This document shows, piece after piece, positions 1-59,636 of a DNA stretch of 64,000 bases; the stretch's first letter is position 1; each line of letters opens with the position of its first letter. A program made the position numbers and the translations under genes. The stretch comes from Tubiluchus corallicola (Eukaryota > Priapulida > Priapulimorpha > Priapulimorphida > Tubiluchidae). The notes under the pieces are model-generated. The model saw only the letters and a list, made by a program, of their open reading frames with translations. It did not search any database and was not told the origin of the DNA. Location of the stretch: positions 694,501-758,500 of the forward strand of contig JAQGDQ010000008.1 of NCBI GenBank assembly GCA_030141605.1, read 5' to 3'.

Positions 1-1124
1 TTAATAAGAAGAATTGCTTCTTAAATTATAACCATGGAATAATTAATTGAATTATTTGACAAAATTGCAGAATCAGTTCGTGTTTATTTTTTGCACTTTT
101 GTGCATTATTTTCTTACCCCTGTGTCTGAGAAAGACAAGCTCCATGACATGTTATAGATGGTTTTAATAATCTTAATGCCTGTTTAGAACTCTTCATTTC
201 CCCATTTATTTTATAGCTGAATTGTTAGGCATACCTTTACCTTGTAACATTTTTCATAATGTATAAGAATGGCACGATTATAAATGCTTTATTTTGCAGG
301 TACCTAATCAAAATTCTTTTTCAGGTGCAGAATTTATACTTACTGCCTAAAGTATTGTGATGTTACGTAAAGCAAAATATCATGCCGTTTGCATGTAGAT
401 AAACACATGTTTGTAAATTATGTATACACGGATATATCTTAAAATTATATTTTATCGCGGGATCGCGTGGGCTTTTTATTGCCCTGAAATAAATCTGTAA
501 AGCAGAAATAGTAAATTAGTAAACGTAAAAATGGGAAAAAGTTGGATAATGTGAACCATCTTCGTTAAAATGGAACCGCGTGTTGAGAAATATTTCCGAT
601 TCGCGTTACAATGGAGTTGTTGGTGTGAGATATGTCTTGCTAATGCATTGTCACACCGTGCATTGTTTAGCATTTTCTTGTGTAATATATTATATACATT
701 GTGCGTATGTTGGCCAGATTTAGCTGCACCACTGGGTGGAATTCACCATACGGGTGTGAAACAGGTAGTTGTTAGTTTAAACTGAATGTTACTGATTCTC
801 TTTCTACTTTTCAATTGTAATTTAACACATGTTTTACATTCAAGGCAAATTTCAACTATTGTACATTTTGATTATGGATGATTAGTGTTAGCACTGTTTT
901 TAACGACATTTCTGTAAATAAGTTCTGTTACTGTTATTATTGTAAAACATTTCTTCTGTTGATGGAAATAAACAAATTATTTTTATGTCATGAACACATG
1001 TAACTTTCAGGATTTAGGATTTTTGGTTATGCTGTAATGGCATGAGTATGTTCATTTTCAAAGTTGAATGATTTGTATGTGTTCTGCTAATTGCCATTGC
1101 TAATTAGGTGTTTGTTGTGTGTAG
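1..1124. other. Noncoding stretch before the first SRRT exon in the window
   Basis: This AT-rich stretch has stops in all frames and no segment resembling the arginine-rich or acidic N-terminal exons of SRRT. It ends in a splice acceptor (tgtgtgtag) at 1124. The next exon opens with one base that completes a split codon, so coding exons must lie further upstream, and this is read as SRRT intron. Short open frames such as 570-785 have no recognisable content. Confidence 0.6.
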
Positions 1125-4100
1125 GTTTAAGGTGAAGTACCACCCCAAGGAAGCAGCTCAACGGAAAGAGGACCTTCTTGCATCAGTGAAGAATCGCCTT
1201 GAATCTTTCATGTATCTTTTCAACAACAGCTGGTGCGACAACCTTCTGCTTGACATCGACAAATCGGAGCAGATAGTTCGGTTTCTGGATGCTGGTATAA
1301 GAGACTTTTATAGTGTTAATTTATGTAGAAAACTTGTGCTGCTTTTAATTTACCAGCTTTTTTTAGTGCATTTGTGCTAGTTTTAAGGCAACATTTGCTA
1401 CACCTACAACAATAGACATGCAAACTATATGATAGACAAATGTGTTACTATGACTACAATAATGACGTGCAAAGCTATTTGACAGTGTTTGCTTGCTGTA
1501 CTCAAATGTAAAGTATTATTGATAGTTTAGTCAATTTATATAATCTTAATTTCAAGATTACTTGTTAAAACAATTAATTAGTGGATCTACAATTAATGAA
1601 TTTATGAAACCGTATTATTTGAAAAGGATTGTAATTTTCTTATCTCCATTTTCTAATAATCATATTTATGGCTTGGAGGTCGCGATACTGTATATTTCAT
1701 CTCGATCGAAACTCTGAAAAATGCTGACCTAGAATTCAATTAACGTCATGGATCCAGATCCCGGCCCGATCTTCGATCTAATCCAAAACCTTGAACACCC
1801 TACTGGTGAGGTTATGCTTGCAGGTCTTGTCCTCAGTACAAACGTCTGAAATAGGCCTAATAATATGTTAGAAATTATGAATTGAGGAGGTATTTCCCGC
1901 AAAGGGTCTTGCCAAGTGGCACTATTACCTCACAGTCGGTGATCGTTCTGACTTTCTAACTCATGGTGGCATTGCGACGTAGGATTTTTCATGGTTTTTG
2001 CTGTAATATCTTGCAGTCGTGATTAAAATGGAAGGTGGAACTGATCTTGATCTCAAGGTGCTAGACAACGAATCGGAAGATGAAGAAGAGGGCGAAGAAG
2101 GAAAGAGCTCGTCTTCTTCCAGCGAAGATGAAGATGAAGAAAAGAAGAAGAATGCCGATGACGCTGCTAAGGTAAGCTTGGTGCAAAATCTCCTGTACAG
2201 TTTGAAATGTTGCTTTTATGGAATTGATGTATTTTGTGCAATTTTGTTCTTTGGGCATTAGTATTATATGTACTCTAATAAATACTCAAACATGTTGATC
2301 AGAAATCTAATTCAAACTAAGAAAATTTTCGTTGAAATAAACTTAAGGTGTAGGTATATCCAATCACTGACAGCAGTGTGTAAAAAAGATGGCAGAGTTG
2401 TTTGCGTAGGTATGAATACTCACAGGTTGTTGAGCAACAGAAAAGCAGCATGTTACCAGTTTGTGACTCAGTGGTTTGTTTAATTTAGTTTATTTAGTAA
2501 TGCAAGTGCTCCCTTTTGCAGTAAATACAGCATCTAAAATTGAAGACAAGAGTGCAGCTTTGTCAGCATATCAGGACTTTTCAACTGTAAATTTGGTAGT
2601 AATAAAGTGTAGCCTACTTAAAATTCCCCCAGAAGCGATTAAGGACCTATTTGATTTTCTTCGAAATTAAACAAATTCAATTTTGATTGAGCTCAAAAAA
2701 TGATAATTTTTTTTACATTTTGTTTTGCATTGGTAATTTATTTATAAAACAAATATTACACAAGTACAGACTACTGCTGGATTGGTGTACTTAAGTCGGA
2801 GATGTGTCTTTTGAGATCGTTTTTGATCTTGAAAACGTTTTAAACTAATTTTTCCATATTCCATGTTCTTGGTCTCTTGGGTAACAATTTTTGCTGATAT
2901 TGATTATTGATCTTGGTGTCGTAATCCAATTTCTTGTTACTTTTTCACTTTAGGCAGACTGTAGTTAATTTCCACTGAGTATTTCATTACATCATTTACG
3001 TCATTTGCCATTGTACCACGTAAAACTAAATACAAAATTTATGTAAAATATGCTTAAAACTAATTTTTAAGAAAAAGTAGTTTTTATCATTGGTTTCAAA
3101 ACACATGATCTTAACATTGCACACCTTGTTATAAAAGTTATTGTTTTTGTAATATTTTTGTCTTAAAATATGATTCTTTGGTCTTAGTCTCGATTACACC
3201 GGTTTGAGGCAAGTGTCTGGTCTGTCTGTTCTCTTCTGTAGTTGTGCTTCACCATGTAGCTAAATGTTGCTCGCCATTGTTATTGCAACCTTTAAATAGG
3301 AGTATTTGTACTGTTCACTTTCAATTGACGTATTATTTGAATGTCCTGCTATGATGCAAATTATCGTTTTTTGAGAATTTATCTGTGAAAATCACATTTT
3401 ACGTCCTCTAAGAAGTTCTGAGCAGCGACACCCTTTCTGACTTTTAGTTACTATTTACTCTGAGAGTTCTTTTCAGTCACAGTTTTAGCAAATGCTTTTG
3501 TTTTCTTCCCCAGGAAATGGAAATGGACATGACATCTAAGGAGCGAGAATTGCAGAAAAAGGCCAAAGAATTTCTGAAAAAGAAACACGAAAACCAGACG
3601 GTGGGATGTGTTCTGCTTCTCAAGCATTGTGCTTATTTTATATGCAATGAGTCATCTGACAAGAAGGCTGCATTTCCCATCTATGGTTGTTTGGCTGAGA
3701 GCATGCAACATCAAAAATTAACTAAATTAGGCAGCCTTGTAATATTTCTTTAATGGAAATTGTTCTCATAAATAGAATTCTTTCCCTTTTAACATGTTAT
3801 GCCCTGGGGTACTGTTTCTGCTCAAACTATGTGTTATTTATTTAAAAGACAATATGGATCAGACTTTTTGTTATCGTTTTAACTGATACTTTTCTAGTAA
3901 CAAAATTTCTATTCTTTCAAATAACTTGTTACTGATGAATCATTACACACAAAAATAGTGAGATTATGTATACCTGTTTAATGTCGCAGGATCTACTTTT
4001 CAGTAACAGTGACAGTAGAAATTTTTGTAACTTTGAATATTTTAGGGATTTGATGAAGACGAGGAAGATAGCGGAGCAGAAGCGGATCGAGAGCCTGCGG

Positions 4101-20200: not shown

Positions 20201-23200
20201 GCGAGAATTTATAGCGCGTTTAATCGGATGTGAAATTTCAGATAAACAATCCACTCGCTTTCTGGCTGCCGCTGACTTTTTCTGCAACACTTGTTGAATT
20301 TAATGCTTGGAATATAGATGTAGAATTGGTCTAGCGCCCAATAGAAAGGTTACTATTAATTATTTTCAATAAAGGCGAATGCGCATGTCTGTGACGTTCT
20401 ATTTCACTGGCACAGACTAGATGTTTCCAGTTTGAGTCGCTTAGACAACGTATTGATCCAGTTACTACACGTGTGGCATTTGCAACTGCCAAGTCATTGT
20501 TCTGGCACCTTGCCAGGTTCAGGAGCGTTTGTACGGATGTTCGGAACGCGTTAATCGTTACGCAGGTCTAATAAACGGGTACACAGAAAACAGTGTAAAA
20601 AATTTTTTACGTAATATATTTCGGATAGCGCCGCTTTGGCGTAAGCACCAGAACTATGTGGTGAACCACATCTCTTATCTCTTCGTCCAGAAAAGAGACT
20701 AATTTAAAGGACAAGAAAAGGGGCACTTGAAGTAGGTTTCAGAAAAATCGCCTTAAAAATTATATTACTTTATAGGAATTTTATGCGTATATCGTACTCG
20801 CACTGAAAGGAATTTTAGTTTGTTTTCATTTTAAATCTCCCGCAATACTGTTGCGAAGTCGCCATTACATTACATATACCAAACGTAAATCAGGGGAAGA
20901 AAAGGCAATGTTAAACTATATCTCAAAAGACTTTCCGTGCAAATCTATATTACTTGGATTTCCGCTTACCTGCTAGAAAGACTTATGTAACTAGAAAAGA
21001 AAATTATTAATTATTTAAAATATTTTCACCAATTGGTAAAATGTCGCTGACTCACCCCCTCCAGGGTGCATCACTCACTAACCAAAAAACGTAATTTTAA
21101 TCTTATTGACAAGATACAGTAATTTTAAATTTTATTTACTTGTGCGCTACGAATGCTCTGATTATTTTTTCAAACTTTACAAAATGTTATCTAAACTTGT
21201 TTCAAATGACCTGTCGTGAAAATGGCTGCGTCTAACGGTCATCGTGGGAGTTTAAATTTTTATGTTTTATACAGCATTACTGCCTATTGAAGTCCTGTAT
21301 GTAAAAAGGTAGTATGTAAGCGATATAAAATTTCAAAACGAATTTTTCAAGCTTTATGTTTATGAAGGGTTTTCGTGTGCTTTAAGTCCATTATAGACAT
21401 AAGCTTTCTCTGTAACGGCAGACAATGCTATAATTTCTGCTTTTTTAATAAATGCTATTGAAAAGTGTTTGTATGACAAATATAAAGCATAATGCCAAAG
21501 CAGCACTGCACAATGTTGTTGCAGTTGTAAAAAAACTAAGTTACCTTGCTGGAAATTGGCAGCATACTATGCATGATCTTAAAGATATAATCTCCATGTT
21601 TCGTAATAAAAGTTTAATTTGAAATCAGTTAGGTCTTTCAATTATACATTGAATTAACACATTGGGTAATTGTACTAGATTAACTCTGTTTTGTAATGGA
21701 CGTGATTTAACAACTGCAAGTTTAGGGCTTGTACTGGAACATTGTGGCTTGAAAATGCACATGTTTGTCAAAACCCTGGCAGTTCAATGAGAAAAGAGGA
21801 ACCTATGATACGTAGCAAAACTTTTACTAATCTTGCATGCGCCATTAATGCTGTTTTTGTTATTAACTAAAAAATTTTAATAGTTAAACCAGCAGCTAAC
21901 GTAGCACTCACACTAGCAGACAATGTCAAGACAAGGTACAAATGTAATTTTCTAAACCATTATGTAAACCATTACAACATTTTTGATATTTGTGAATAGT
22001 TGCTTCACTGTTGAAAACTCTTTGAATTAATTTTACAAATTTTATGTTTACGGTTGGTCAAGTCACGTCCAATTAAAATATTATAGCATCCCTTACATTC
22101 ACCCATTACTGACACTATTTTAAATTATTTGTAACAAACTTTAAACAATGACATTGTGCCTTAACGACAGCTACTTTAGTGAAGTCGAAAAGTTCATACA
22201 AGCTAACACACAGGAACTTGGAAAAGACAAATGGCTGTGTCCACTTTCTGGCAAGAAATTCAAAGGACCAGAATTCATTCGCAAGCATCTTCTAAATAAA
22301 CATTCTGAGAAGCTGGATGAGGTCAGAGCAGAGGTGAGAAATAGAGTTCTTTTTTCAATATTTTTAGAAACCGACTGGTGAGGGAATAAGATTTTGAGCT
22401 TTCAATTTTGTGTCGAAATCGAAAAGTGGGGCGCATTGTGTACAAGCATTTGTACATAGCAGATCGGTCAGGGTACTGATGTACAGGCTAGTGTAGGGCA
22501 GGGTGGTGGCATAGTATGTGTCGCACTGGATGTGCGCACGGAGCGTCAAGATTCACAGAAAAGAGGTGACGAAGGGTTATGGTGTGAGGGATATTGAGGA
22601 TAAGTTGAGTGTACAGACAATTACAATAGTAGCATTTTGGAGGAGATAACAGAATTTAAGACAGTAGGGCATAGACTCAGGGAGAGAGTGGGCAGGCATA
22701 TTAGCACTTATGGTGACCCATTAAATCAAAATGTGTTTTTACTTTTACATAAATCTTTTAAATTTGCAATATTGCACTAAACATATATCAGACAGTCTAT
22801 GATTAAAACTGGATAAGATAGCTGCTTTAACAACATATTGATCTAAGTTACTCCATATGTTGATCTCTCTGTTACTAGGAATATTTATTAACTTTTAGTC
22901 TACTAAAATTTGTGTACAACTTGTAATTATGACTGTAAGTAGGTCGGGCACAGTACCGAAAAAACTTATGGAAAGTTAAATCTACTAATCGATGACCAAT
23001 TTTGTACATCATTTTTAGGTTATATTTCATGTGTCTTGCTTTTAATGCTTCTAATTCACGTTTGTGTAATCGACAATATGAATTATTCCCGAGGTTGGAA
23101 TGTTCAAAAAGCTTTTTTTAAAATATCACTGATTGTTTTTCAACATTATCGATGTCTGCTATTTTATAAGGTAACCACATTTAGCAGAAAATGTCGCAGG

Positions 23201-27496: not shown

Positions 27497-30400
27497 TTAT
27501 AAGCTCTGTGATTCCAGATTTGAGTTCAGCATCCGATGAATCTTCATGAAGTCTTTGTAGAGTTTGCTTTGGTAACTGTAAGTGACGTACAGTCTGAATA
27601 GTAAGGACAGTGAAAACATATTTCGAATTATGTACAAGACACTGGCTTCTAATCATAGACTACAATGATTTCAGATTTGCTATTAAAATTTTCTACTATT
27701 ATGACAGCAAAATCGCCAATAATTCTGTTAGAATGAAGCCTATAAAATTTACCGTTTCTAGTAATTCATGGACCAGGCTTGGATTGCTAGTCTCATAGTT
27801 TAGAGATTGTATAAGTCGCAGTGCATGCAACTGATTCTTCACATTGAAATCGTCTGAAATGCACGTGTTAGAAATATTTATTACTATTCATATAGCATGC
27901 ACTTTAGTTATGTACGGTGTGAGGACACAGCCGATTGGACAATGTGTGTGGAATGTGCATAGCAACCCAAACAAAGCAATGCTGAGCTTTGTTAATAAAT
28001 TCCAGATGCTTGCTGACAATGTTTCTTGAAGGTTTTATCAGCTGTACTGCACCTGGCTATTTACCTTGCTGATGGAGGCTGTATTTAGACATCCAAACAT
28101 TTCTAACACACTTCTGCTGGTTCAGTGTTTCATCTTAGAGAAGTATCCTTGATAATGAGATAAGTTCTGATCCCGTTACAACCATCCACATTAAGAAGGT
28201 GTTGCCCTTAAGTGCTGTCTCTGTCGATGATGGCTTACAGAGTAACAACTGTTTCAAAAATGAATCAACTTGTTTACTATACAGTTATATTTTCTATTAC
28301 TATAGTCCTCTTTACTGAATTCATGGGATTTGTTGTGTGTTACCATGGTCATGTTAATGGCACAGTTACCTATAAGTAATTATTGCTTACCTGTAAGAAT
28401 AAGCGAAAGACGAGAAATAATGCTTTGCTTTTCGCTCAATTACCTATAAGTAATTATTGCTTACCTGTAAGAATAAGCGAAAGACGAGAAATAATGCTTT
28501 GCTTTTCGCTCAGGTATTTTAGTCCCTTTTGGTTAATGCTGACATTATACAGAGCCATAAGCAACAGCCTAGATAGAAAAAAAGCAGCAATTGCATTTCA
28601 ACTGGTAAAGATTAGTCTAGTTGCAAATAAGCCAAACAACTGATGGTTATAATGAATTAAATAATCAGGCATTCTGACTCATTTGTTATTTCCAGGAAAA
28701 ACGTTGCTAACCTAGCTACAAAATATCCACTCTATTAAAAAACAATTAAAACATGCTATAAAGTGCTGCAAAAGCGTTAATTGCTTAAACCTTTGAGCCA
28801 AGCTAACCTAAAATATAAGTATAGCATATCATAAACAGGCGTATCAAGACTTTAGGACCTCTTTGGCTTATAGTTCTGACCTGTCCATCTCTATTGTGAG
28901 TGTGATGTAATGAGCAGATTAAACAATTACTTGTGGTATATTCAAGCAGGGTGTGCAATAATTTGCTGTGTAATATCTTGCACGCGTTCGTTGTGTGGCA
29001 CTTATATAAAAGCTGCGCTCAGCAAACTGCCTGTGGTGTGCTACAAAGTATGCCCTTTACGTGAATATGAAAGTATACACATTTTCCGATGAGAATAAGA
29101 ATTTTTTCTAAAATGTGATGCCCTCAATTTTGACACCCTAGGCTATAGCCTAGTTAGCCTATTAGTTAATACGCCCCTTTTCATAAAACAGAAAAGGTCC
29201 TTATAACACCCTTCTCACAAGCATCTAATCATGAAAGCAAAAGTGCATGTAACTACAGACATTATGTTGACTAATGATCATGTGCATACTATCCCTGGTG
29301 CCCCAGCTGTTTATATCATTGATGCGGTATGTGCATACAAAGATGCGAACATGCCTGGCTTACAACTTATTTCAAAGGATTATCTTAGATACAGAGCTAA
29401 ATTCCACTCCTGCTACAAACATCGACATTAAGTAGGCTGCCAATGAGTATTGGATCGCAGATGCAAAATCTCGAGCTGTATAAAAAATGTATGTCAGTTA
29501 CAAGTTTTGGGAGAAAAAACGTACTTTAGTAGAGAGGTCTAATGACCCCAGTCAATCTGATAAGTTTTCTCTGCAGTCCCTTTCTTTAACCAGTGATTGA
29601 TATGATTAACAGTTACCAACTCTATTGTGCTTTATATCTGTCCACACCACTACTGTTTTGTTTTTCAAGAGCAACACGCAACTTAGCTTTGCCAAATGCA
29701 AATATTATACATTAACTATTAACTGTGAATATTACTTACTGCCGTAATCGAGAAAATTGCATGGGAGCTAGCTTCGTCAAGCAGGTCTCAGTAAACATAT
29801 CGATTACTCTTACACCATTTGGATTTTCGATCAGAAAATGACGCCCAGATGGAGCAGCAGCTATGTTGGTTATTACTCCACAGAGTGCTAAGACAAATGT
29901 GGACTCATCACTTTGTTCTTGAGAATTACCAGTTGCAATATTTTCACCATCGGCATAAGTTTCTACGTAACTTTCTAAGGTTCCCAGGACAAGTTCTAGG
30001 AACTCTGAAATCTATATGGAAACTTTCATGCCCTAAGTATATTATACCGTTTTTAAAAAATGATTGGAATAGCAGATGAATGCTGAAAAAGTGTGTGTAT
30101 GCTTAGCCAGCAGTTATGTATTACTAGGCCTGGTGACTGCCAGGAAACCAGGTTCTAAAAGTGTGCTGCATTCTAGCCTGCACTTTCTTAAAAATGTATT
30201 GTATAGGATAACAAGCTTTAACGTGCGACTGGGGAATAATTTGCAGTATACTAAAAATGCTAATTATTGAATTTGAGAAAGAAATTTGTCCATCAATTTC
30301 CAGTCTTCCTACAAAGAAGTTCAGCACTGCTACTGCTGCTACTACTAAAAAAAGTTTGAAAGGACAGACCATCTCAATGTTCAAAAAAAAAAGAATATTG

Positions 30401-33400: not shown

Positions 33401-35161
33401 TGATTAGGAACAGGTGACATTATAAGACAATGCTTTTTAAAATCTAAAAGTAATTGAGTTCTAAATAAAAAAATACTAAGAAGCATATAGTAGCACTATG
33501 CGATTTGAAAGAAAATGATTACATCTGTAGCTGCTTCTAGTTGCTGCTTGACAGCCTCATACTTGTTTTTCCAATGCTCACAATTAGAGTGTGCCACTTC
33601 TAATTCTGTTTGGCAGTGGTTCTTATCTGTGGTAAAGAGCAAAAAGTTAAAACACAGTAACAAAAAAGTGTAAAAGTAAATTACAGAATGAAGGCTGCCA
33701 TAAATGAACATTGCAAGCTTTTGCCTCTAGAGCAGTACTTCAACAAAAGCGAATTTAAACATGGTCTTACCCTTCTGCGTCGCAATAACAGTTTGCACCA
33801 AACTTTGAAGATCTTTTTGTATTATTAGAGGCAGTAATCTAGTCAACTGGTTGATCTGTTTTCGAAGTTCTTCGATAACAGACTGTTCTACTATGACGTA
33901 ACCAGGCTGTAAAAACAATAAAAATGTATAAATTAGCTCTATTTGGGAAATTGTATACCTTACCACATATCACTGTAAAAGGAGCTATAATAAATGCTCA
34001 CTACATTCGTACTATGACTAGATCAGAAGAAAACTTTAAAATGTATTAATTTATAGTGTCAGAAATCTAAATCTGAATGTTGCGTGTGGGCAAGAGAGAC
34101 TGCTAACCTGCTTATCTATCACTACTCCGAAACTGTCACCCATGTGTCATAAAACACGGCACATATTGTCTGACTCACTTTTTGTGCGAATGTAGCAATC
34201 TCTCTCAGCATATGTGCAACATTTAAATATATTCGAAAACCAAAGAACCAAACCATTAAATTAAACAGTTGCGGATCTGGCAAAAAACTACATGTTATTT
34301 TAGTTGGGTACTTTTTATTGCTGTTTTGAAACATTATTTGTACCCTGGTAGTTAAGACGGGCTACACCTGACCCTCTATTTCCACAAATATAATAGCATA
34401 TGTATGCCTGTATTGTTCAACTAATTGCCTTAATAATTGCAAAATCCTCACCCTGATAAGACATTTGTTGTGTTTCACTAACTCTGTCTGCACTTGCTGC
34501 CATTCCTTCTTCATCTGTTCTATGTTGTCTTTTGTTTGCTTGTAAAGCTTTTCCTGGACAAAATCGTACACAGCCGATTAGACCAAACTGTGTAATTAAA
34601 TTGTTATTACACGCAAATTTTTGGTTATTAATTACTTAATTTTTAATTACACAATCTTTATTGGCACGGCAGCCAAAATGTTTTTTATAGAAACAGTTGC
34701 TTTCTAGTTTGTGAAAAATTTAAACAAAACTCATATAGGAACAGACGCATGTGTGACATATAAAATTTTTGCTTGCAAAATTTCTAATAAAACTAATAGT
34801 AATAGTAATATAGATATTTCTGTAATCACATATAACTTTCATATCACCTTGAAAGTAATACGTATGCAACCAGAGGTGTGAAAACAGATTCAAAGTTGAT
34901 TAGTCCATACATAGCCTCTATAAACGCTCCTGAATATTGTTGGTGAACATTAGCTGCTCTAGCTCTATCTCTCGATCTTTCCAAATTTTTATCATTTATT
35001 AACAATTTGTAATTTACAGGTGTTGTATGAGACAAATAAGAATAAATTAAATTTAACGCTTCAGAAACGCTATTTTATCCTACCGTTTCTGCAACCAGGG
35101 CCTGGCTATCAAATTTGTATGCATCATCATTGAGCAAATCTTCACTGCACAGACCTTCCAT
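27465..35161 (-). CDS. HSF2BP: HSF2BP / MEILB2 (meiotic localizer of BRCA2), complete, 10 exons
   Basis: In vertebrates HSF2BP brings BRCA2, and with it RAD51 and DMC1, to meiotic double-strand breaks. Exons (minus strand, in order): 35161-35084, 34553-34452, 33906-33771, 33626-33523, 33134-32979, 30002-29740, 28568-28465, 28133-28065, 27853-27753, 27593-27465. All have GT-AG borders and compatible phases; the sum is 1242 bases, or 413 residues plus TAA. The N-terminal coiled coil contains VIEELRKQINQLTRLLPLII and SNCEHWKNKYEAVKQQLEAA. The signature SDYCVNLGTAISTLLWGVSQ matches the vertebrate EYCTEMGAAACTLLWGVSSS. An armadillo-like half follows: TFVLALCGVITNIAAAPSGR, LLLMALYNVSINQKGLKYLS, then LHALRLIQSLNYE. 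The human protein is 334 residues, so this one is longer, mainly at the N-terminus. Exon 6 needs an agag acceptor and is the least certain border. Confidence 0.92.
28366..28513. repeat. 74-bp perfect tandem duplication across the HSF2BP exon 7 donor
   Basis: Bases 28366-28439 and 28440-28512 are identical copies, starting ttacctataagtaattattg. Each copy holds, on the minus strand, the last 47 or so bases of exon 7, the donor (ACAG/GTAAGC) and the first intron bases. The transcript therefore has two identical 5' splice sites, at 28465 and 28391. Only the first keeps the frame; using the second brings in a TAA four codons on. Confidence 0.95.
31105..31534. mobile_element. TA-flanked MITE with long inverted ends (pogo/mariner-like)
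   Basis: The left end cagtcaacctcgggtataag and the right end (reverse complement cagtcaacctcggatataag) are near-perfect inverses, flanked by TA at 31103-31104 and 31535-31536. The interior repeats a cttataagggac motif several times. No coding capacity. It lies in HSF2BP intron 5 (30003-32978). Confidence 0.88.
32060..32940. repeat. Degenerate ~38-bp minisatellite, two blocks
   Basis: Units like ctcctcaccac-ttcgttgcaggcatttcacaa recur about six to seven times at 32650-32940, and one clear unit stands apart at 32067-32106. Units vary at many positions. The larger block begins just inside HSF2BP intron 5, about 40 bases past the exon 5 donor, and accounts for the protein-like frames seen there. 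Confidence 0.75.
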
Positions 35162-41200: not shown

Positions 41201-44200
41201 TTTGTGTTCTAAGTGAGCAACGTTAAATTTTGTCATGTCCGACAGTGACATTAAATGACAACGGTCTTGTTGCCATCCGATCTAGAGGCAGAAACTACCT
41301 GCGCTATCTTTGCCATATTGGCGCGGACTTCAGCTGGATCGCGTGGGCCGCACTTTCATTATGTTGACAAACCTCTTTGCGGGCCGCACAAGATCTGTCG
41401 GCGGGCCGCAGTTTGCACACCCCTGATTTAATATATCTATATGGAGTTCAAATTAGATGCACATCATTTACTTACAAATTTACTCATAACTACAATACAA
41501 TTCTAAAATTCATTTAAGCTTATTATCATATCTTGTATAGATCGTGAGTGCACTACAATGGCAATATTGGTTCATTTTTAATATGAGGCTTAAATATCTT
41601 CACTTTAGATTGTAAATCCTACAAAAGATGTGAAGAGGCCAGCAGGCAAAAAACCTATGTGGTGTGTGTACTTCTTTGGGACAGATAATTAGTAAGTGCT
41701 GTCACTTTGTTAGCAGTAGTATGCAATAGTATCATGTGTAATTAAGCACCTTCTTGTTTGTTTTATTTTTTACTAAAAAGTACAAAAGGAATTTTCGGTG
41801 CTCATTTTTATAACAAAATTTTAAGTTAAAATGGAAGGATTCGAATCAACTGATCTCGTAGTATTAGCAGTTATTTGCTTGGTAATCAAATAACTAACAA
41901 ATTTACCTATAAACTTACATAGTCTGTATGCTGGTAATAACTGTATCAATGTGTACATGTGAAACATTTTAGTTATTTACACTTTCACACCTTTCGCTTA
42001 CTATTCAGAGTTAATTATAAATCCTCATGAACTGTTTCGTTTCAGATTCTTTTCAGTTGTAATAATAAAGGAAAAAAGAAAAGGTGTTAATCTTAATTTG
42101 TGCCTTATCTTTTTGTGTATGCAATACAAATCATAATCTGATTTTTAACGATAAATAATAAGTTTAATGATGATAATAACAATAATAATACATATACAAT
42201 TCATATTAGAATAGACTGTTAGTAATAATGGAAATGATTTAGGCATGCAACTTTTTGTTCAACTGCGATTCTTTTTAGTGCGTAGTTATTTTCATTTTTT
42301 CAAATCACTGCTTTCTTTTCGGACATCATGAGTGATAAACTTACAACTTCTAAGTGCGGAGAAGCTATTTTTGTCTAAAAAGGAGTTATTCGCATAAGTT
42401 TATCTATTTTGGATGTTACTTTTAAAAAAGAATATGTGCTGTTTCCAAAGATTTCAATTTTTAAAAGTGTTCATTTTTTTTGCACAATTACACTTGTAAG
42501 CAAATCTGACAAATTTAAGCAAAATCATTACGAAAAACAAACACTCTGAGTTGTACCAAGTGCAACTCACACATTGGTCTCAAAGCACAAAGTAAACTAT
42601 TTGGCAATGTTTCTCACGTGGTCAGAAACTGAAGATTTTGCGAACAATAGTTGTAAAATTCAGCCTTAAAAATGAAGAGACGATAGCTTTTTTTTGAAAG
42701 TGCTTATTTTCTTTTATTGAGTTGCTTAAAAACATGGAAAGTGCATTTCACAAAGAAACATCAGCATTTAACTCTTCTGCTCATCACCCACGGGTCCGGG
42801 TCAAAGGTCAATAATCTTGGCAAAATTTTTATCATTCAGTTTGCCTCTTTGAGACTTTTCATTTGATATACAGCAACCTACTTTCGGCAGATCCTGGAAG
42901 GCATTTGTCTCCTCGACCCCCATGTTGCCCCTAAGTGAGTCGCGGATGAACTATTCTTATTGTAACCTATGCCATTCGATCCGCCTCTTCGATACCTTTC
43001 ATTTGATGTGCTACAGGGTATCATTGCTCAACACTCGGTGCACTTCTGTTCTGGACCCCCATTTATCGGGTTTTACCCCCTAGCAGGGTCGCGAGTTAGC
43101 TATTCTCATTTAAACATATGACATTCGATTCACCTCATCAAGACCTTTCATTTGATGTGCTACAAGGTACCTTTGCTCAGCACTCGGTGCACTTCAGTTC
43201 CCGACCCCCATTTTTTGTTTTTTGCCCCTAAGTGGGTCGCGGATTAGCTGTTCTCATTGTAACCTATGCCATTTCGATCCTCCTCGTCGAGACCTTTCGT
43301 TTGATATGCTACAAGGTGCCATTGCTCAACACTCTGTGCACTTCTGTTCCTGACCCCCATTTTTTAGTTTTTGCCCCCCTAGCAGGGTCGTGAGTTAGCT
43401 ATTCTTACTGTAACTTATGCCATTCGATCCATCTCACCGAGACCTTTCATTTGATATGCTACACGGTAATATTCCAAGACACTTGATGCATTTCTGTTCC
43501 CAACCCCCATTTTTCGGTTTTTGCCTCCTAGCAGAAAATTTTCCCCCTCCAAATGACCAATATTCTGCCATGCCCAACAACTTGGCCCCACCTAACCACA
43601 TGCCAAATATTAGCGCCCTAGCTCAAAAACCATGGGAGCAGATGGATCCTAAAGAAAAATAAATGAAGACCCGACCGCTCTGTGACCTTTGACCCAGCAA
43701 TTCGGGTCACATGTATACATAGGTAACTTTGACCAGAGAGTGTATCCTGTGTGTTTTGTGTTCCTAGCTCTCAGCATGTAAAAGGTCACAAATTGGGGGA
43801 CCCCAAATTTTGCATTTTGGTCCCTCACTCGGGAGTTTAAAGCCTGTCAGCTTTTTAAAACCTCAGGTGCACACCTGGCCTACAGTACCCAAATACTTGT
43901 GAAAAAAATTGAGAAAAACCGAAAGCCTTAGGAGGAGATGCTACCTAATCAAAAAAGTGACCGACGCCCACTGCCCTTAACCAGTGGTCAGCGGCTGCCA
44001 CACTGTTGTATGTCCCCCTCCCAGGACTATGTGAGAGTACCAGGACAGCCATGTGAGTTTGGTGATCCTAACTTGCAAGGCTTACGAGTTATTAAGTATT
44101 AAAGTGGCGAAGAATTAGTAATAGTAAAAATTTTGCACTCGATGAAAAATATTAAGCTTTTGCTATAGCCAAATCTTAAAAATGCATGATGCAAAAATTT

Positions 44201-54078: not shown

Positions 54079-57063
54079 TCAAACGTTTGATTCACTTGCA
54101 GTTTCTCTCAGTTGAATAGAATCGGCACTGCATTTAGCCTCGCTTAAACTAGTTTGCTGCTTTGCAGGTGAATTCTCTAACATAAAGCCCTCAGTCTTAT
54201 GCTCTGATCGCTTTTTATCACAAGTCGACAAATTACTACAACTAATTTTCTGCACACTTTCAACAGTTTTTGAACCAGCAAAACTTGTCATTGGTTCACC
54301 TAATAATGCACTTGATTGATCTTCATCGTTACTTGTTTTGTAGATATTTGGAAATGACCGAGCTTTGTATTTGTTGCCACTCTGATCACTTTCAAAGTCA
54401 AAATTCACTTCATTATCGTGTAACTCTGATTGCCTATGTAAGGAACAAGTACTTGGAAATAACACTTTGTTATACTGAGAGCCTGCCTCAGAAATGTTTT
54501 CCAATGAACAACGTGAATTTATGTCTTTCACGGTATGATATTCTGAACTACAAGTGTCGTCATCATCTGAATAATAATGATAGTGAGGACTGTCACTTAC
54601 TGTTTCTTCAGGAGACTCTGGTATCACATCACTGGCAATATCTGGAATTGGCACAGTAGCTATGTTGTCAAACAGAAATGAATCTATTGTAACTTCCGAG
54701 TCAAAGAGAATTGATCCTGTTTTGTTACCCTGCAGGGTTTTGCAGTTGTCTATGTTTAGACTTTCCACAATTTTTCCTAATGTCTTTTGTTGAATTTTAT
54801 ACTGCTTGTATATTTTTTCCATTTGTGTTGAGCTATAATCTCGCAAACGTTGCATCTGCATATTATACGAATCTCGTAAACGCTCTAACTGCCCAGATGC
54901 ATAATCCTTTACCCGGTTCACCTGGATGTTGTAATTTTCTCTGATTCTTTCTAATGTTGTCGCAGGGGTACTTGGTTCGGTTTCACTGATGTCATCTATT
55001 TCACTAACGGTTTCAGGAGTGTCACTATTTACACTGGGAACACCAGACTTGAAATGTCGGAATCTATCAAGTTGGTTAGCATAACTTTCCCGAATCCGTT
55101 CCATCTGCAATCTGTAATTGTCCCTAACGCGGGCTAATTGTTGTGAATAGTGGTCACGCAGGCGTTCCATCTGCTGCTGCTTATACGTTTCCATATTTTC
55201 TATTAATCGTTTTGCTTGTTGCCGTTTCGTAAGACGATCCTGACCACATGTGCAATTCTCTGCAGCCTTTTTGCGACTATAGGTTACAACAAGAGCAAAA
55301 ATGAAAAATGCAAAAGAGGTGCAAAAACCTATAAGCGTACTTTCTCTTTTTAAATCCATTAATATCTCATAGTTCAGTGCTAATCTCATTAGAGCCGTTG
55401 TATTGCCAACTCTGTTATAAGCTGCACAAGTATAATGTCCACCATCCTTCCGTAACACATAACTGATATACAAATTGCCATTGCTAAGCACTTTAACTCT
55501 CTCTGGATCACCTATTAGCACATTCTCATCAATCTTCTCTAGTTGATCATCCAAATTTGATGTAACAGATGCAGTTACATTAATTTTTACAGAGTTCGCT
55601 TCTCCTGAAATTTTGTCATCATCACTTGCACTGCTATTCAGATGAAGTTCATCATGAAGTGGTGTAGCCCACACTAAATCAGGCCTTGGATAGCCACTTG
55701 CTACACACTTTAACAGTGCTGCTGATCCAACTTTTGCTCTATTAATTTCATTAAAATCATCAATTTGAATGTAATCACAGTAGATTTCTTGCAATGACTT
55801 CATAAGTAAACGTCCAGCGTTTGTGGTGGGTTGACTGCACCTGGTAACATTTTGATCAGTAACTGTATGACCAGCTTGTGTTCCCCATTGATAAATCCAC
55901 TTTATATCGCAACTGCATTTCCAACTAGTTCCTGACAACTTGAGCTCAGATAAATTGTTTAGAAATGTAATGTCTGGTAGGGTATGTAAATGATCATTCT
56001 TGCTGATATCTATACTACGCACAGATGTTAGCCACTGAAAAGCATTATGATCAATTTCCGTTAATTGGCGATTTTCTGCCAGTTCTAGTTGTTTCAGATT
56101 TGTGAGGCCTTTCAGTGTGATACTGGTTACTTTTTCCAAAGCCCACATACGTCTTAAGACAAGTTTGTTCAAGTGAGATAAATGAGAAAATAAAGAGCTG
56201 GATAGTTGCAGCATGTTGTCAGCAAGGAATAAATCTTGTAAGCTAAGCAGTGGTTTAAACACCAAATTGTCAAGCCACGACAAGCCATTTTGTGTAAGAT
56301 CAAGATATTTTAGATACCTGAGCCCAGTGAATGCATCAGTATCTATCCTGCTTATTTTGTTTCTTGAAAGGTTCAGCTTTACTAGATGCAACTGTTGTTC
56401 AAAAATAAAGTTATTCAGGTGATTAATCTGATTCTGAGATAAGTCCAAAGTCTCTAACCACCATAAGTCTTTCATTACATCACCATCTAGACGTGATATT
56501 AAATTGTTTCTGACGTTTAAATATTTAAGGGTGGACGTTTTGTTAAATTTTTTATATTGCATATCTGTGATACGGTTATGACTAAGATCTAAGACTTCGC
56601 CGTTGTACCACAGTCCATGCGGGAATGTACTGATCTGGTTACGGCTGAGATTCACGTGCAAAATGGCAACATTAAAAACAAACCTAACTGATGAAAGATT
56701 GTTATCACTAAGGTCTAAATATTTTAGCTTCATTAATGGTTGGAAAGAGAATTTCTCAATTTTTTGAATTTTGCAGTTCACAATAGACAATTCTTCTACA
56801 TTAATGAAATTTCTTAATGAAGTACTATGCAATTCAGGCAAGTAACTGTCAGCAATGTTCACAATTCTGTACTGGCTACTATTTGGCACGTGCGGAAAAT
56901 GGTTGGCTTTTTCGCATCTTAACACATCTTCCTTGCATATGCACATCTGTGGACAGGACATTTTCTGTTGAAATGAACTGCCTTTGACAACTGTTGTTAA
57001 AACCATAAGCAGGAGTAACATTGCCACTAATGTCATCATATTTGTACACACTTCAAAAGTCAT
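54079..57063 (-). CDS. LRR-Ig single-pass membrane protein with hendecad cytoplasmic repeats, 994 residues, single coding exon
   Basis: Probably a cell-surface adhesion or receptor protein; the exact orthologue is not recognised. In order: signal peptide (about 1-29, LVAMLLLLMVLTTVVKG), LRR N-cap (37-58, CPQMCICKEDVLRC), about 12 leucine-rich repeats (64-370, e.g. LKYLDLSDNNLSSV), LRR C-cap (about 380-430, WKCSCDIKW), one Ig domain (about 431-562; Cys453, Trp465, Cys546 in HYTCAAYN) with a long insert near 476-530, a membrane segment (about 576-597, IGFCTSFAFFIFALVVTY), then a ~397-residue cytoplasmic tail. The tail has two blocks of 11-residue repeats (about 631-668 and 703-768; MERLRDHYSQQ, LERIRENYNIQ) and an acidic Ser-rich end. 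The extracellular plan is that of LRR-Ig families such as kekkon, LINGO and AMIGO. A good acceptor (ttctgtttttcag) lies 22 bases before the ATG, so a 5' UTR exon is likely. No TIR domain. Confidence 0.93.
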   Translation of the reverse strand: MTFEVCTNMMTLVAMLLLLMVLTTVVKGSSFQQKMSCPQMCICKEDVLRCEKANHFPHVPNSSQYRIVNIADSYLPELHSTSLRNFINVEELSIVNCKIQKIEKFSFQPLMKLKYLDLSDNNLSSVRFVFNVAILHVNLSRNQISTFPHGLWYNGEVLDLSHNRITDMQYKKFNKTSTLKYLNVRNNLISRLDGDVMKDLWWLETLDLSQNQINHLNNFIFEQQLHLVKLNLSRNKISRIDTDAFTGLRYLKYLDLTQNGLSWLDNLVFKPLLSLQDLFLADNMLQLSSSLFSHLSHLNKLVLRRMWALEKVTSITLKGLTNLKQLELAENRQLTEIDHNAFQWLTSVRSIDISKNDHLHTLPDITFLNNLSELKLSGTSWKCSCDIKWIYQWGTQAGHTVTDQNVTRCSQPTTNAGRLLMKSLQEIYCDYIQIDDFNEINRAKVGSAALLKCVASGYPRPDLVWATPLHDELHLNSSASDDDKISGEANSVKINVTASVTSNLDDQLEKIDENVLIGDPERVKVLSNGNLYISYVLRKDGGHYTCAAYNRVGNTTALMRLALNYEILMDLKRESTLIGFCTSFAFFIFALVVTYSRKKAAENCTCGQDRLTKRQQAKRLIENMETYKQQQMERLRDHYSQQLARVRDNYRLQMERIRESYANQLDRFRHFKSGVPSVNSDTPETVSEIDDISETEPSTPATTLERIRENYNIQVNRVKDYASGQLERLRDSYNMQMQRLRDYSSTQMEKIYKQYKIQQKTLGKIVESLNIDNCKTLQGNKTGSILFDSEVTIDSFLFDNIATVPIPDIASDVIPESPEETVSDSPHYHYYSDDDDTCSSEYHTVKDINSRCSLENISEAGSQYNKVLFPSTCSLHRQSELHDNEVNFDFESDQSGNKYKARSFPNIYKTSNDEDQSSALLGEPMTSFAGSKTVESVQKISCSNLSTCDKKRSEHKTEGFMLENSPAKQQTSLSEAKCSADSIQLRETASESNV

Positions 57064-59636
57064 TCTTCATTACTGGTATCCATACTGAAAAACAGAATTT
57101 CACTTTCATGTTTCATGGGTTTATTTTGCATATAAATAATAATATAAAAATATAATAGTTGACTAAATTAAATTACGGTAGTGCAATGATTACAGTAATA
57201 AACAAACAGAAAATTCAGAACGTGTCGATTCAAGTAAGAGCTGAATAATATAAACTCAAAATATTTGGTAAAACCTATATTATCTGTTTCCCTTACTCCA
57301 CTTGTCCCATGGTAAAAAAATTTCTTACTTTAAAGTGGTAATATGACCATAGATTCTTTTTCTATATATATTCAGAAATAAGCAATATATTCTTAAAACA
57401 TGGATGGTAATATTCAGCCAGCTTGTCATCCGAGCACCAGGGCTTCTGCTGGCCTCAGCATTTTGCTTGATATCCCCCAGTCATTAAAAGCAAATTTGTA
57501 TCGATTGCAGCTTAGATTTCTTTTGTCTTTTTGCAAAATATCTTTCTGGTATATTTTTGATTTGAAAAATTTCTATTCCTTTCACTTAACATTGAATACT
57601 GCTGTACCTATTGCATTTTCATTCATTCCTCTTCTAGATATCACTACCCAGCAACAACTAGAAAATGGCGAATCTCGCACTGTAAGTGCGTTAAGTAAAT
57701 AGTTTATTTTAAGATGGAATAACAATAAAACACGAGGCTCCTTCTGGCCATAAAATGAAACAAAATATGGTAAGGAAAGCACAGTACGATGAAATTTAAA
57801 ATCATGGGACTTAAAACGAACTACTTAGCAATATGTAAGCTTGTTTTAATTGTACAAAATAATGTAATGTGGATTGTACAGTAAAATAATGTAATAAATT
57901 TTGCACAAAGAAATAACGTGTGTGTATATAAGGAACTATAATTTTTCTCGCCAAGATTGTTCATAATCGCAGTAATATAAGAAATGTCCATAGCGCGTTC
58001 ATTCACTCGTCTTTTGGCTATCAGGCCAAGTTATAAACTGCAACAAAGAAGTTGAAAAATGTACGCGAAATCACAAAATAACTCTTGAACTGATTGAAAC
58101 AAATCAGCCATTTTCGTACCCACAATGCTTCTGGTTTTTGAGGCACGTGCGGGAGAATGGGAACTACGCTTGCGCGTCGTCTGGCACTGGCTGGCAGCTT
58201 TCAGTAGGAATAATCAAACTGTGTTTGTAGCAATTTAATTCAAATTCATATTGGTTACTGCAAACAGTGAAACATGAGAGTGGCTAAGCAGGGGGAAGTT
58301 TTTGAATTTACTTTTCACAAGCAATCGTAACACTATTGGCTATAGGTAATATTGTAAGTTTTTCCTATTTTACATAAAAAGTGATAGCACATAAGCGGCC
58401 AAAAGTGGAATGACAATACAATTAATGGCTGACTGGCTGTCTTCAGTGTCCCTGTTAATGATTAAAGCTTGGAGTTAATTTCGTACGTATGCACAATGTC
58501 ATCGTCAACCAGTGTCATTCAAATGGGAATTACTTATGTAGGAAGAGCACTAGAATAATGTATTGACCTCATTCATTGATCATCCTGCTTGAGTCAATAC
58601 TGCCATTGACAAGAGGACGGCTTGATGCGTTTCTTAAGATGCATCACGCTGTCAGTGGCACGAGTTCCATCATTCTGAATATTCGCCGGGTATTTTTTGC
58701 AGAACCAACAAATTGACAGTCACTTCCGGTAAAACCGAAAAGATTTATAAATCGTCTAAGGGTCTGATGCTATACTCTTTGGTTTACGTTTTCACTTTCT
58801 TATTTTTTCTTTGATAAACACTTGTTCATACTTTCAGGTTCTCTGCTATTAATTGAAAGCTGAGCAGTTAATATCAAACGCGCTTTGAATTTAAAACAAG
58901 TTTTACAACATTTTATGTCTTGTCCTGGCTTTTGTTCTCAGTAGTGAAGTAGCTAAGTAGCAATAATTTAACACAACAAGAAAAAGTTATGCCCCAGGCC
59001 AGTGACAAAAATATGCGGTGATGTGAAAGTAATGTTTTGCTTTGCATAGTAAATGTCTGATTACCGAGAATTTTGTCTTGATGATTTATCCCTGTAGAAG
59101 TTGAACCAGTAAGTTACTTTTAAAAAATTGTTGTTTTTGTCTACATTAAGTTATTGAGCTGATTAACGAAAAAACGTTTTAAATTAGCCTAAAGGTGTGT
59201 AGTTAATCCATCTCACAAGTTTACAATTCAGTTGCACATCTGACTGTGACAATTATACGAATTTGGAATGTATTGTTGACGATGATCTTTTCTACCATTG
59301 AAACTCTGCTTTTTAAACTGCATGCCTGTTCTGTGTGAGTTGGTGCCGCCTTACTGATTCTTACGTTAGAACTGAAAAAAAAACTTGTTTACCATTTTAA
59401 ATGTAGCTGTACAACTTTAGATAAACGAAGTGAAAAATGAGATTGCATTATTCACTGTTCAGAACTGTTTCTCTAGTTTTTTTTTGAATTTTTTGTAATT
59501 TGCATCGTTTCATAACATTCTGGTTTAAATTATGCCGATGATTTTTATAAATATTTACTGTATTTTTATCATTAAACATGCCACTGCTATACCCAAGCCA
59601 AACTAGAGTATGTAAATGCACACATGTATGCAGAGT

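Follow-up and report, generated by a model that had tools for sequence, protein, structure and literature searches.

Receptors of the LRR-Ig (LIG) kind, in which leucine-rich repeats (LRRs) are joined to immunoglobulin (Ig) domains, are already known; in the fly, one study counts nine such proteins, namely Kek1-6, Lambik, CG15744, and CG16974 (PMC5591008). In the same source, Kek-1, -2, -5, and -6 are assigned a PDZ domain (elsewhere a "PDZ motif"), and the portions available report no remarkable conservation of Kekkon tails beyond this feature and mention no 11-residue array (PMC5591008). CG16974 is described as the apparent one-to-one orthologue of worm ZC262.3 (PMC2235866). ZC262.3 encodes IGLR-2, which partners PAQR-2, a homologue of the adiponectin receptor (PMC4833288; correction PMC4892886). 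The gene considered here belongs to Tubiluchus corallicola and lies in a 64,000-nucleotide stretch of contig JAQGDQ010000008.1 (694,501-758,500, forward strand; hereafter the window, whose numbering is used throughout). Its predicted product shares the LRR-Ig architecture with the Kekkons (Kek1-6) and, including the single membrane span, with CG16974, IGLR-2, LRIG1-3, Lambik, and SMA-10. However, its 394-residue cytoplasmic tail (counted from residue 601) carries an old array of 11-residue (hendecad) repeats, whereas the accessible descriptions of CG16974 and of IGLR-2, which has one Ig domain, make no mention of 11-residue repeats or coiled coils; this comparison is by description only. The receptor type is ordinary, but its tail appears undescribed: the first-pass annotation of the sequence knew of no well-described LRR-Ig receptor with such a tail, and none was found in the open-access literature, judged by titles and the openings of abstracts (subscription journals lay outside the scope).

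The hendecad array and its age

The tail contains eight good 11-residue repeats, three in a first block and five in a second. The layout of the gene and its predicted product is as follows.

54079..57063, minus strand: whole coding sequence, a single intact frame from ATG to TGA (stop included), 994 amino acids
56980..57063, minus strand: putative signal peptide, about residues 1-28; from hydropathy, hydrophobic 19-residue windows beginning at residues 1-13
55768..56955, minus strand: LRR domain with Cys-rich caps, about residues 37-432; Pfam LRR_8, E 2.6e-36
55378..55755, minus strand: one Ig domain, about residues 437-562; Pfam I-set (E 6e-8) and Ig_3 (E 1.3e-7), each above its curated cut-off
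55276..55338, minus strand: predicted membrane span, about residues 576-596, followed by basic SRKK; Kyte-Doolittle windows above 1.6 begin at 574-578
55051..55248, minus strand: predicted helix 1, residues 606-671, with 11-residue units at 621 (weak), 632, 643, 654, and 665 (degenerate)
55072..55170, minus strand: first block, three good repeats, residues 632-664; from register and periodicity
54967..55050, minus strand: linker, residues 672-699, acidic (net charge of -6) and Ser/Thr-rich; modelled without helix and at low confidence
54754..54966, minus strand: helix 2, residues 700-770, as predicted by AlphaFold2
54790..54954, minus strand: second block, five repeats, residues 704-758; from register and periodicity
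54082..54753, minus strand: distal part of the tail, residues 771-994, acidic with a net charge of -19
54082..54093, minus strand: C-terminal ESNV, with E at -3, fitting the S/T-x-V pattern of class I PDZ ligands

All 11-residue units quoted in the first-pass annotation were found in register, beginning at residues 632, 643, 654, and 665 and at residues 704, 715, 726, 737, and 748. To these can be added a weaker repeat ahead of the first block (residues 621-631), and the LDRF noted at the end of that block turns out to be the beginning of a degenerate repeat (residues 665-675). The 11-residue period itself stands out clearly: the segment 610-767 has 30 identities at lag 11 (9.6 expected, z 6.9) and 27 at lag 22 (8.9 expected, z 6.6), values reached in 0 of 2000 shuffles in both cases. 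The remaining lags from 2 to 21 give z below 2, and lag 7 lies under expectation (7 vs 9.8). Hydropathy autocorrelation also has its maximum at lag 11 (z 5.0), with lags 3 (z 3.6) and 14 (z 2.9) raised as well. In particular, hendecad positions a, d, and h (1, 4, and 8) hold hydrophobic residues in 13 of 14 cases in helix 1 and in 16 of 18 in helix 2 (0/2000 shuffles each), whereas the a and d positions of a heptad coiled coil, which was rejected, are hydrophobic in only 7/15 and 8/19, the level of shuffled sequences.

The pattern proposed for the repeat, with arginine at position 3 and frequent tyrosine at position 8, can be made more precise: position 3 is R or K in all eight core repeats, and tyrosine occupies position 8 in six of the eight. 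The consensus further includes Q at position 11 (8/8) and R/K at position 5 (7/8). An 11/3 geometry is supported by a scan of the hydrophobic moment between 80 and 120 degrees (500 shuffles per block), in which the optima of the two blocks lie at 98.0 and 98.5 degrees vs 98.18 for an 11/3 helix; the peak of the second block, 0.354, barely exceeds the shuffle maximum of 0.352 (mean 0.205, standard deviation (SD) 0.052). The spacing of the hydrophobic stripe matches an 11/3 helix, whereas a heptad does not account for it. The stripe is narrow, and the charged fraction is about one third. Membership in the FBF1 family was considered and rejected: FBF1 is the best Pfam match in the repeat region (E 1.6e-6), with 27.4 bits against a cut-off of 45.

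The age of the array was estimated from the eight core repeats, with the degenerate repeats at 621, 665, and 759 omitted. Their mean amino-acid identity is 0.40, and codon positions 1, 2, and 3 are identical at frequencies of 0.47, 0.70, and 0.29, respectively. Third-position identity between core repeats thus compares with 0.28 for random third positions of the gene. Moreover, identical residues (Met and Trp excluded) share the same codon in 40 of 118 pairs, vs 49 expected from the gene's codon usage. With silent sites saturated, the repeats must be old and selection must have retained their protein pattern; a recent tandem DNA duplication is rejected as their source because third codon positions agree no more often than random ones. 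The protein pattern of the array has outlasted full turnover of the silent sites.

The tail was modelled with AlphaFold2 as single chains, from the single sequence without an alignment. Over residues 592-801, helices are predicted at 606-671 and 700-770 with a low-confidence linker between them; the predicted local distance difference test score (pLDDT) is at least 90 in 73 of 210 residues, and the predicted template modelling score (pTM) is 0.53. In a trimmed model (residues 606-772), the helices extend over 608-671 and 700-768, with pLDDT of at least 90 in 96 of 167 residues, a mean pLDDT of 82.5, and a pTM of 0.63. The blocks are thus predicted not as disordered segments but as two long helices, although single-sequence models are readily helical. 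The modelled portion of the distal tail (to residue 801) is mostly of low confidence.

Possible roles of the tail

The first-pass annotation suggested that the tail oligomerises the receptor from inside or acts as a rod-like scaffold, which is plausible. For the repeats, sequence, period, register, and age are established, and helicity and linker are predicted by the models; on these grounds the tail probably, though by no means surely, serves to cluster the receptor through a coiled coil and to anchor it through a PDZ ligand. The LRR-Ig ectodomain would engage a partner outside the cell. Inside, two helices of about 65-70 residues, each with an a/d/h stripe, would pair as a nearly straight coiled coil, either joining separate receptors or folding a single chain into a hairpin, and the acidic, phosphorylatable-looking linker would part the two helices. 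A C-terminus of the form S/T-x-V is the class I PDZ-ligand pattern, of the type bound by the PDZ domains of Dlg and PSD-95. The protein terminates in ESNV, a point absent from the first-pass annotation, and this ending matches the pattern as a putative class I ligand, which would tie the cluster to a PDZ scaffold, e.g., a Dlg-type protein. Self-association, PDZ binding, and clustering would then go together, and an old, selected 11-residue helical array combined with a PDZ ligand would offer a concrete, testable route to receptor clustering.

Several observations weigh against coiled-coil clustering. Two of the eight repeats have A or S in place of Y at position 8, which makes for a weaker core. 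The moment peak of the first block (0.342) lies inside the shuffle range (mean 0.207, SD 0.056, maximum 0.408), and the hydropathy periodogram of both blocks is strongest at 2.75 residues (11/4), with the helical component near 3.7 weaker. The sub-cut-off FBF1 match means no more than "coiled-coil-like", and single-sequence modelling tends to yield helices for such repeats anyway. The models cover single chains, and the prokaryote, viral, and plasmid collections searched gave no relatives that would show the register to be kept. Finally, on an amphipathic-helix index applied to lipid binding, 3 of 27 windows of 18 residues score at least 1.34 and 14 more lie between 0.68 and 1.34.

The main rival is a lipid-binding helix: the repeats would form an amphipathic 11/3 helix resting on the cytoplasmic side of the plasma membrane, and the tail would sense or shape that membrane. 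The 11-residue period with its 98-degree geometry suits this reading, as do the 17 index windows that reach 0.68 and the position of the first good repeat, about 35 residues past the membrane span. Residues 601-671 and 700-770 each carry a net charge of +5, and a weak Pfam apolipoprotein match (E 0.12) lies far under its cut-off. CCT-alpha and alpha-synuclein contain 11-residue-repeat helices that lie on membranes. Cavin1, unlike the window protein, is a soluble caveolar coat protein without an ectodomain. One study reports that the undecad repeat of cavin1 HR2 (UC1), an 11-residue repeat acting at membranes, promotes phosphatidylserine binding (PMC12079668). However, the non-polar face of the tail helices consists of just positions 4, 8, and 1, with about 65 degrees between the outer two, and is flanked by Q at 11 (8/8) and R/K at 5 (7/8); mean hydrophobicity per 18-residue window is only -0.04 to 0.28. 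Lipid-binding faces are expected to be wider and more hydrophobic than this, and a membrane-lying tail is considered rather unlikely.

Somewhat less probable still is an intrachain antiparallel hairpin, an arm of about 100 angstroms that would grip another protein without self-association through its helices. The pTM values of the two models (0.53 and, after trimming, 0.63) speak for it, and so do the structural matches of the trimmed model found by VIA-align: among the 50 chains listed of 263 aligned, most are PI3K p85 (iSH2) and other long antiparallel helical hairpins such as IpaB and the Smc arm, with PLC-beta4 CC-PBM and LapD2 (Z 9.7, root-mean-square deviation (rmsd) 3.2 over 110) also present. 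The best Z among those 50 is only 10.0, however, and by VIA-align's own guidance a Z below about 13 for helical models may reflect merely a common arrangement; none of the 254 Foldseek matches to the longer model attains E 0.001. The nearest parallel in layout is the C-terminal coiled coil of PLC-beta4 (6ird), where a long helical pair is followed by a PDZ ligand, as in the window tail; the two superpose with rmsd 3.3 over 141 residues at Z 9.1, which is in the common-arrangement range, and with 11% identity no sequence relation is claimed. PLC-beta4 is a soluble enzyme, unlike the window receptor. Moreover, the linker holds an imperfect 30-base tandem duplication (54978-55035), which suggests that it was inserted later into a formerly longer single array, so a hairpin need not be the ancestral form.

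A search of solved structures with the tail returned four matches at E of 10 or less, the best to MafB (E 0.03). With the whole protein, the 60 matches listed of 227 carry the names of LRR proteins or LRR designs, one of the 60 being named only "TIR domain-containing protein".

The tyrosines could alternatively be read as a docking array in which repeated Y-x-x-Q motifs, phosphorylated, recruit SH2 domains such as that of STAT, the 11-residue pattern serving as spacing. YxxQ is a STAT3 docking motif, and the tail has seven copies against a shuffle mean of 1.15, a number reached in 0 of 5000 shuffles. This count is, however, high because of the helical register: Y8 sits on the hydrophobic stripe, and Q11 is kept in the two core repeats that lack Y8. 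SH2 ligands are normally extended, whereas this region is predicted to be helical, and such docking is thus quite improbable. A neutral or decaying low-complexity repeat without a function of its own would agree with the failure to find relatives outside this genome in the collections searched, yet those collections were prokaryotic, viral, and plasmid ones. The frame, moreover, is intact, and the changes that randomised synonymous sites have spared R3, Q11, and the core residues. A drifting repeat would not behave in this way, and this is the least credible account.

Family placement and the link to PAQR-2

The sequence points to a membrane protein of type I topology and the LRR-Ig kind that serves as a receptor or in adhesion. 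The LRR_8 and I-set/Ig_3 matches above curated cut-offs, together with a single span by hydropathy, uphold the earlier view of it as an LRR-Ig membrane protein; only two hydrophobic stretches exceed 1.6 in the 994 residues, fitting a signal peptide and one span. The number of LRRs is about 10-12, as a scan with a loose pattern gave 12 raw matches, two of which (at 123 and 362) appear to be out of register. ADGRA proteins, to which fly CG15744 belongs, carry HRM and GPS domains and a seven-span G protein-coupled receptor (GPCR) part beyond the LRR-Ig region. This type (CG15744, Gpr124/125) is excluded: Pfam finds neither HRM nor GPS in the window protein, which has a single span and stops at 994 residues. 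In LRIG proteins a larger set of LRRs is combined with three Ig domains, vs one Ig region found here by the Pfam scan, and the LRIG/Lambik group is excluded as well. With these two groups ruled out, kekkon or CG16974 remains; the protein may be a kekkon, but elimination among the nine fly proteins favours a position beside CG16974 and worm IGLR-2. Insect proteins of this kind may carry a comparable 11-residue array; fragments of such an array were absent from the literature searched. A published CG16974 primer, one frame of which resembles the juxtamembrane segment, was not used, its second frame being equally open.

Within the genome (343.5-Mb assembly), the sole full match to the tail query is the window gene itself. 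Seven matches were obtained at E of 10 or less, one being the gene and the other six having E of at least 0.896, in an assembly that is gapped. A query comprising the LRRCT, Ig, and span segments gave three matches at E of 0.01 or less: the gene itself and two further loci, L006 and L007. L007 has LRR, Ig, and GPS above cut-off and HRM just under it, and is adhesion-GPCR-like (ADGRA type). L006 (703-2979, minus strand) is an LRR-Ig receptor-like frame with a sub-threshold FN3 match and an aspartate run in its tail. Pattern matches in GTDB genome contigs (0/46 and 0/31) and in viral contigs (0/3) were not confirmed as relatives, and plasmids gave none, as expected for an animal gene. Exact matches to the telomere repeat TTAGG number 95 forward and 223 reverse, vs 50 and 100 for a backward control, with some long runs; as a clue to arthropod origin this is weak.

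If the protein is an orthologue of IGLR-2, its tail may be viewed in the light of worm genetics. IGLR-2 has 773 residues; the allele G498D changes a residue of its span, and a stop at Q594 came up as a probable loss-of-function allele (PMC4833288; PMC4892886). With G498 in the span, Q594 would fall about 100 residues into the tail, although another report assigns stops at codons 543 and 605 to the transmembrane region (PMC7734252), which leaves the span numbering in doubt. Message decay is a possible alternative cause of the effect of the allele at 594. In a published model, IGLR-2 touches PAQR-2 span to span and, through its tail, acts on the PAQR-2 cytoplasmic domain, which the authors call speculative (PMC7428288). 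It is conceivable, but unlikely, that with this orthology the 11-residue helices are the part of the PAQR/AdipoR partner that reads the inner leaflet or docks on the cytoplasmic regulatory domain of the PAQR protein. Sensing or transmitting the membrane-fluidity response would then fall to the tail, a role to which worm genetics points without having located it. Should the placement with IGLR-2 hold, the tail would be a candidate means by which IGLR-2 acts on PAQR-2 in the cytoplasm, as Busayavalasa et al. speculatively proposed (PMC7428288). The genome contains ten matches to the PAQR family (PF03006), all above cut-off and some with internal stops; they are uninformative on a partnership.

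CG16974 itself has been described from several angles. Its mRNA is found in fly embryonic muscle precursors (PMC5591008), and the gene appears in a table of a neural-outgrowth RNA interference screen (PMC2435276). The protein exceeds 1000 residues, and an RNA-editing site lies in its LRR domain (PMC11188811). A putative conserved upstream open reading frame (ORF) of 21 residues has also been reported (PMC2276209). Two short elements precede the receptor gene in the window:

57060..57083, minus strand: candidate upstream ORF of 7 codons, read from the sequence; its stop overlaps the receptor ATG
57085-57090, minus strand: splice-acceptor-like tttcag, just upstream of the 7-codon ORF

The 7-codon ORF (57060-57083) is a possible counterpart of that of CG16974.

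Other features of the window

A Pfam scan of 10 open stretches in the window gave a family match in only two, both exons of SERRATE/ARS2: 1108-1377 (plus strand; SERRATE_Ars2_N, E 6e-10) and 22145-22378 (plus strand; ARS2, E 8.8e-30). Between them lies a match to the snoRNA SNORD61 (3348-3425, plus strand; 46.1 bits, cut-off 43), which is probably intronic given its position between the two exons. Two protein-like open stretches on the minus strand, 29739-30011 and 33730-33969, have no Pfam match; by eye they resemble an armadillo-type protein such as HSF2BP. A tandem array at 42925-43534 consists of 3.9 copies of a 149-base unit (alternatively, a 299-base unit) and is partly open on the plus strand.

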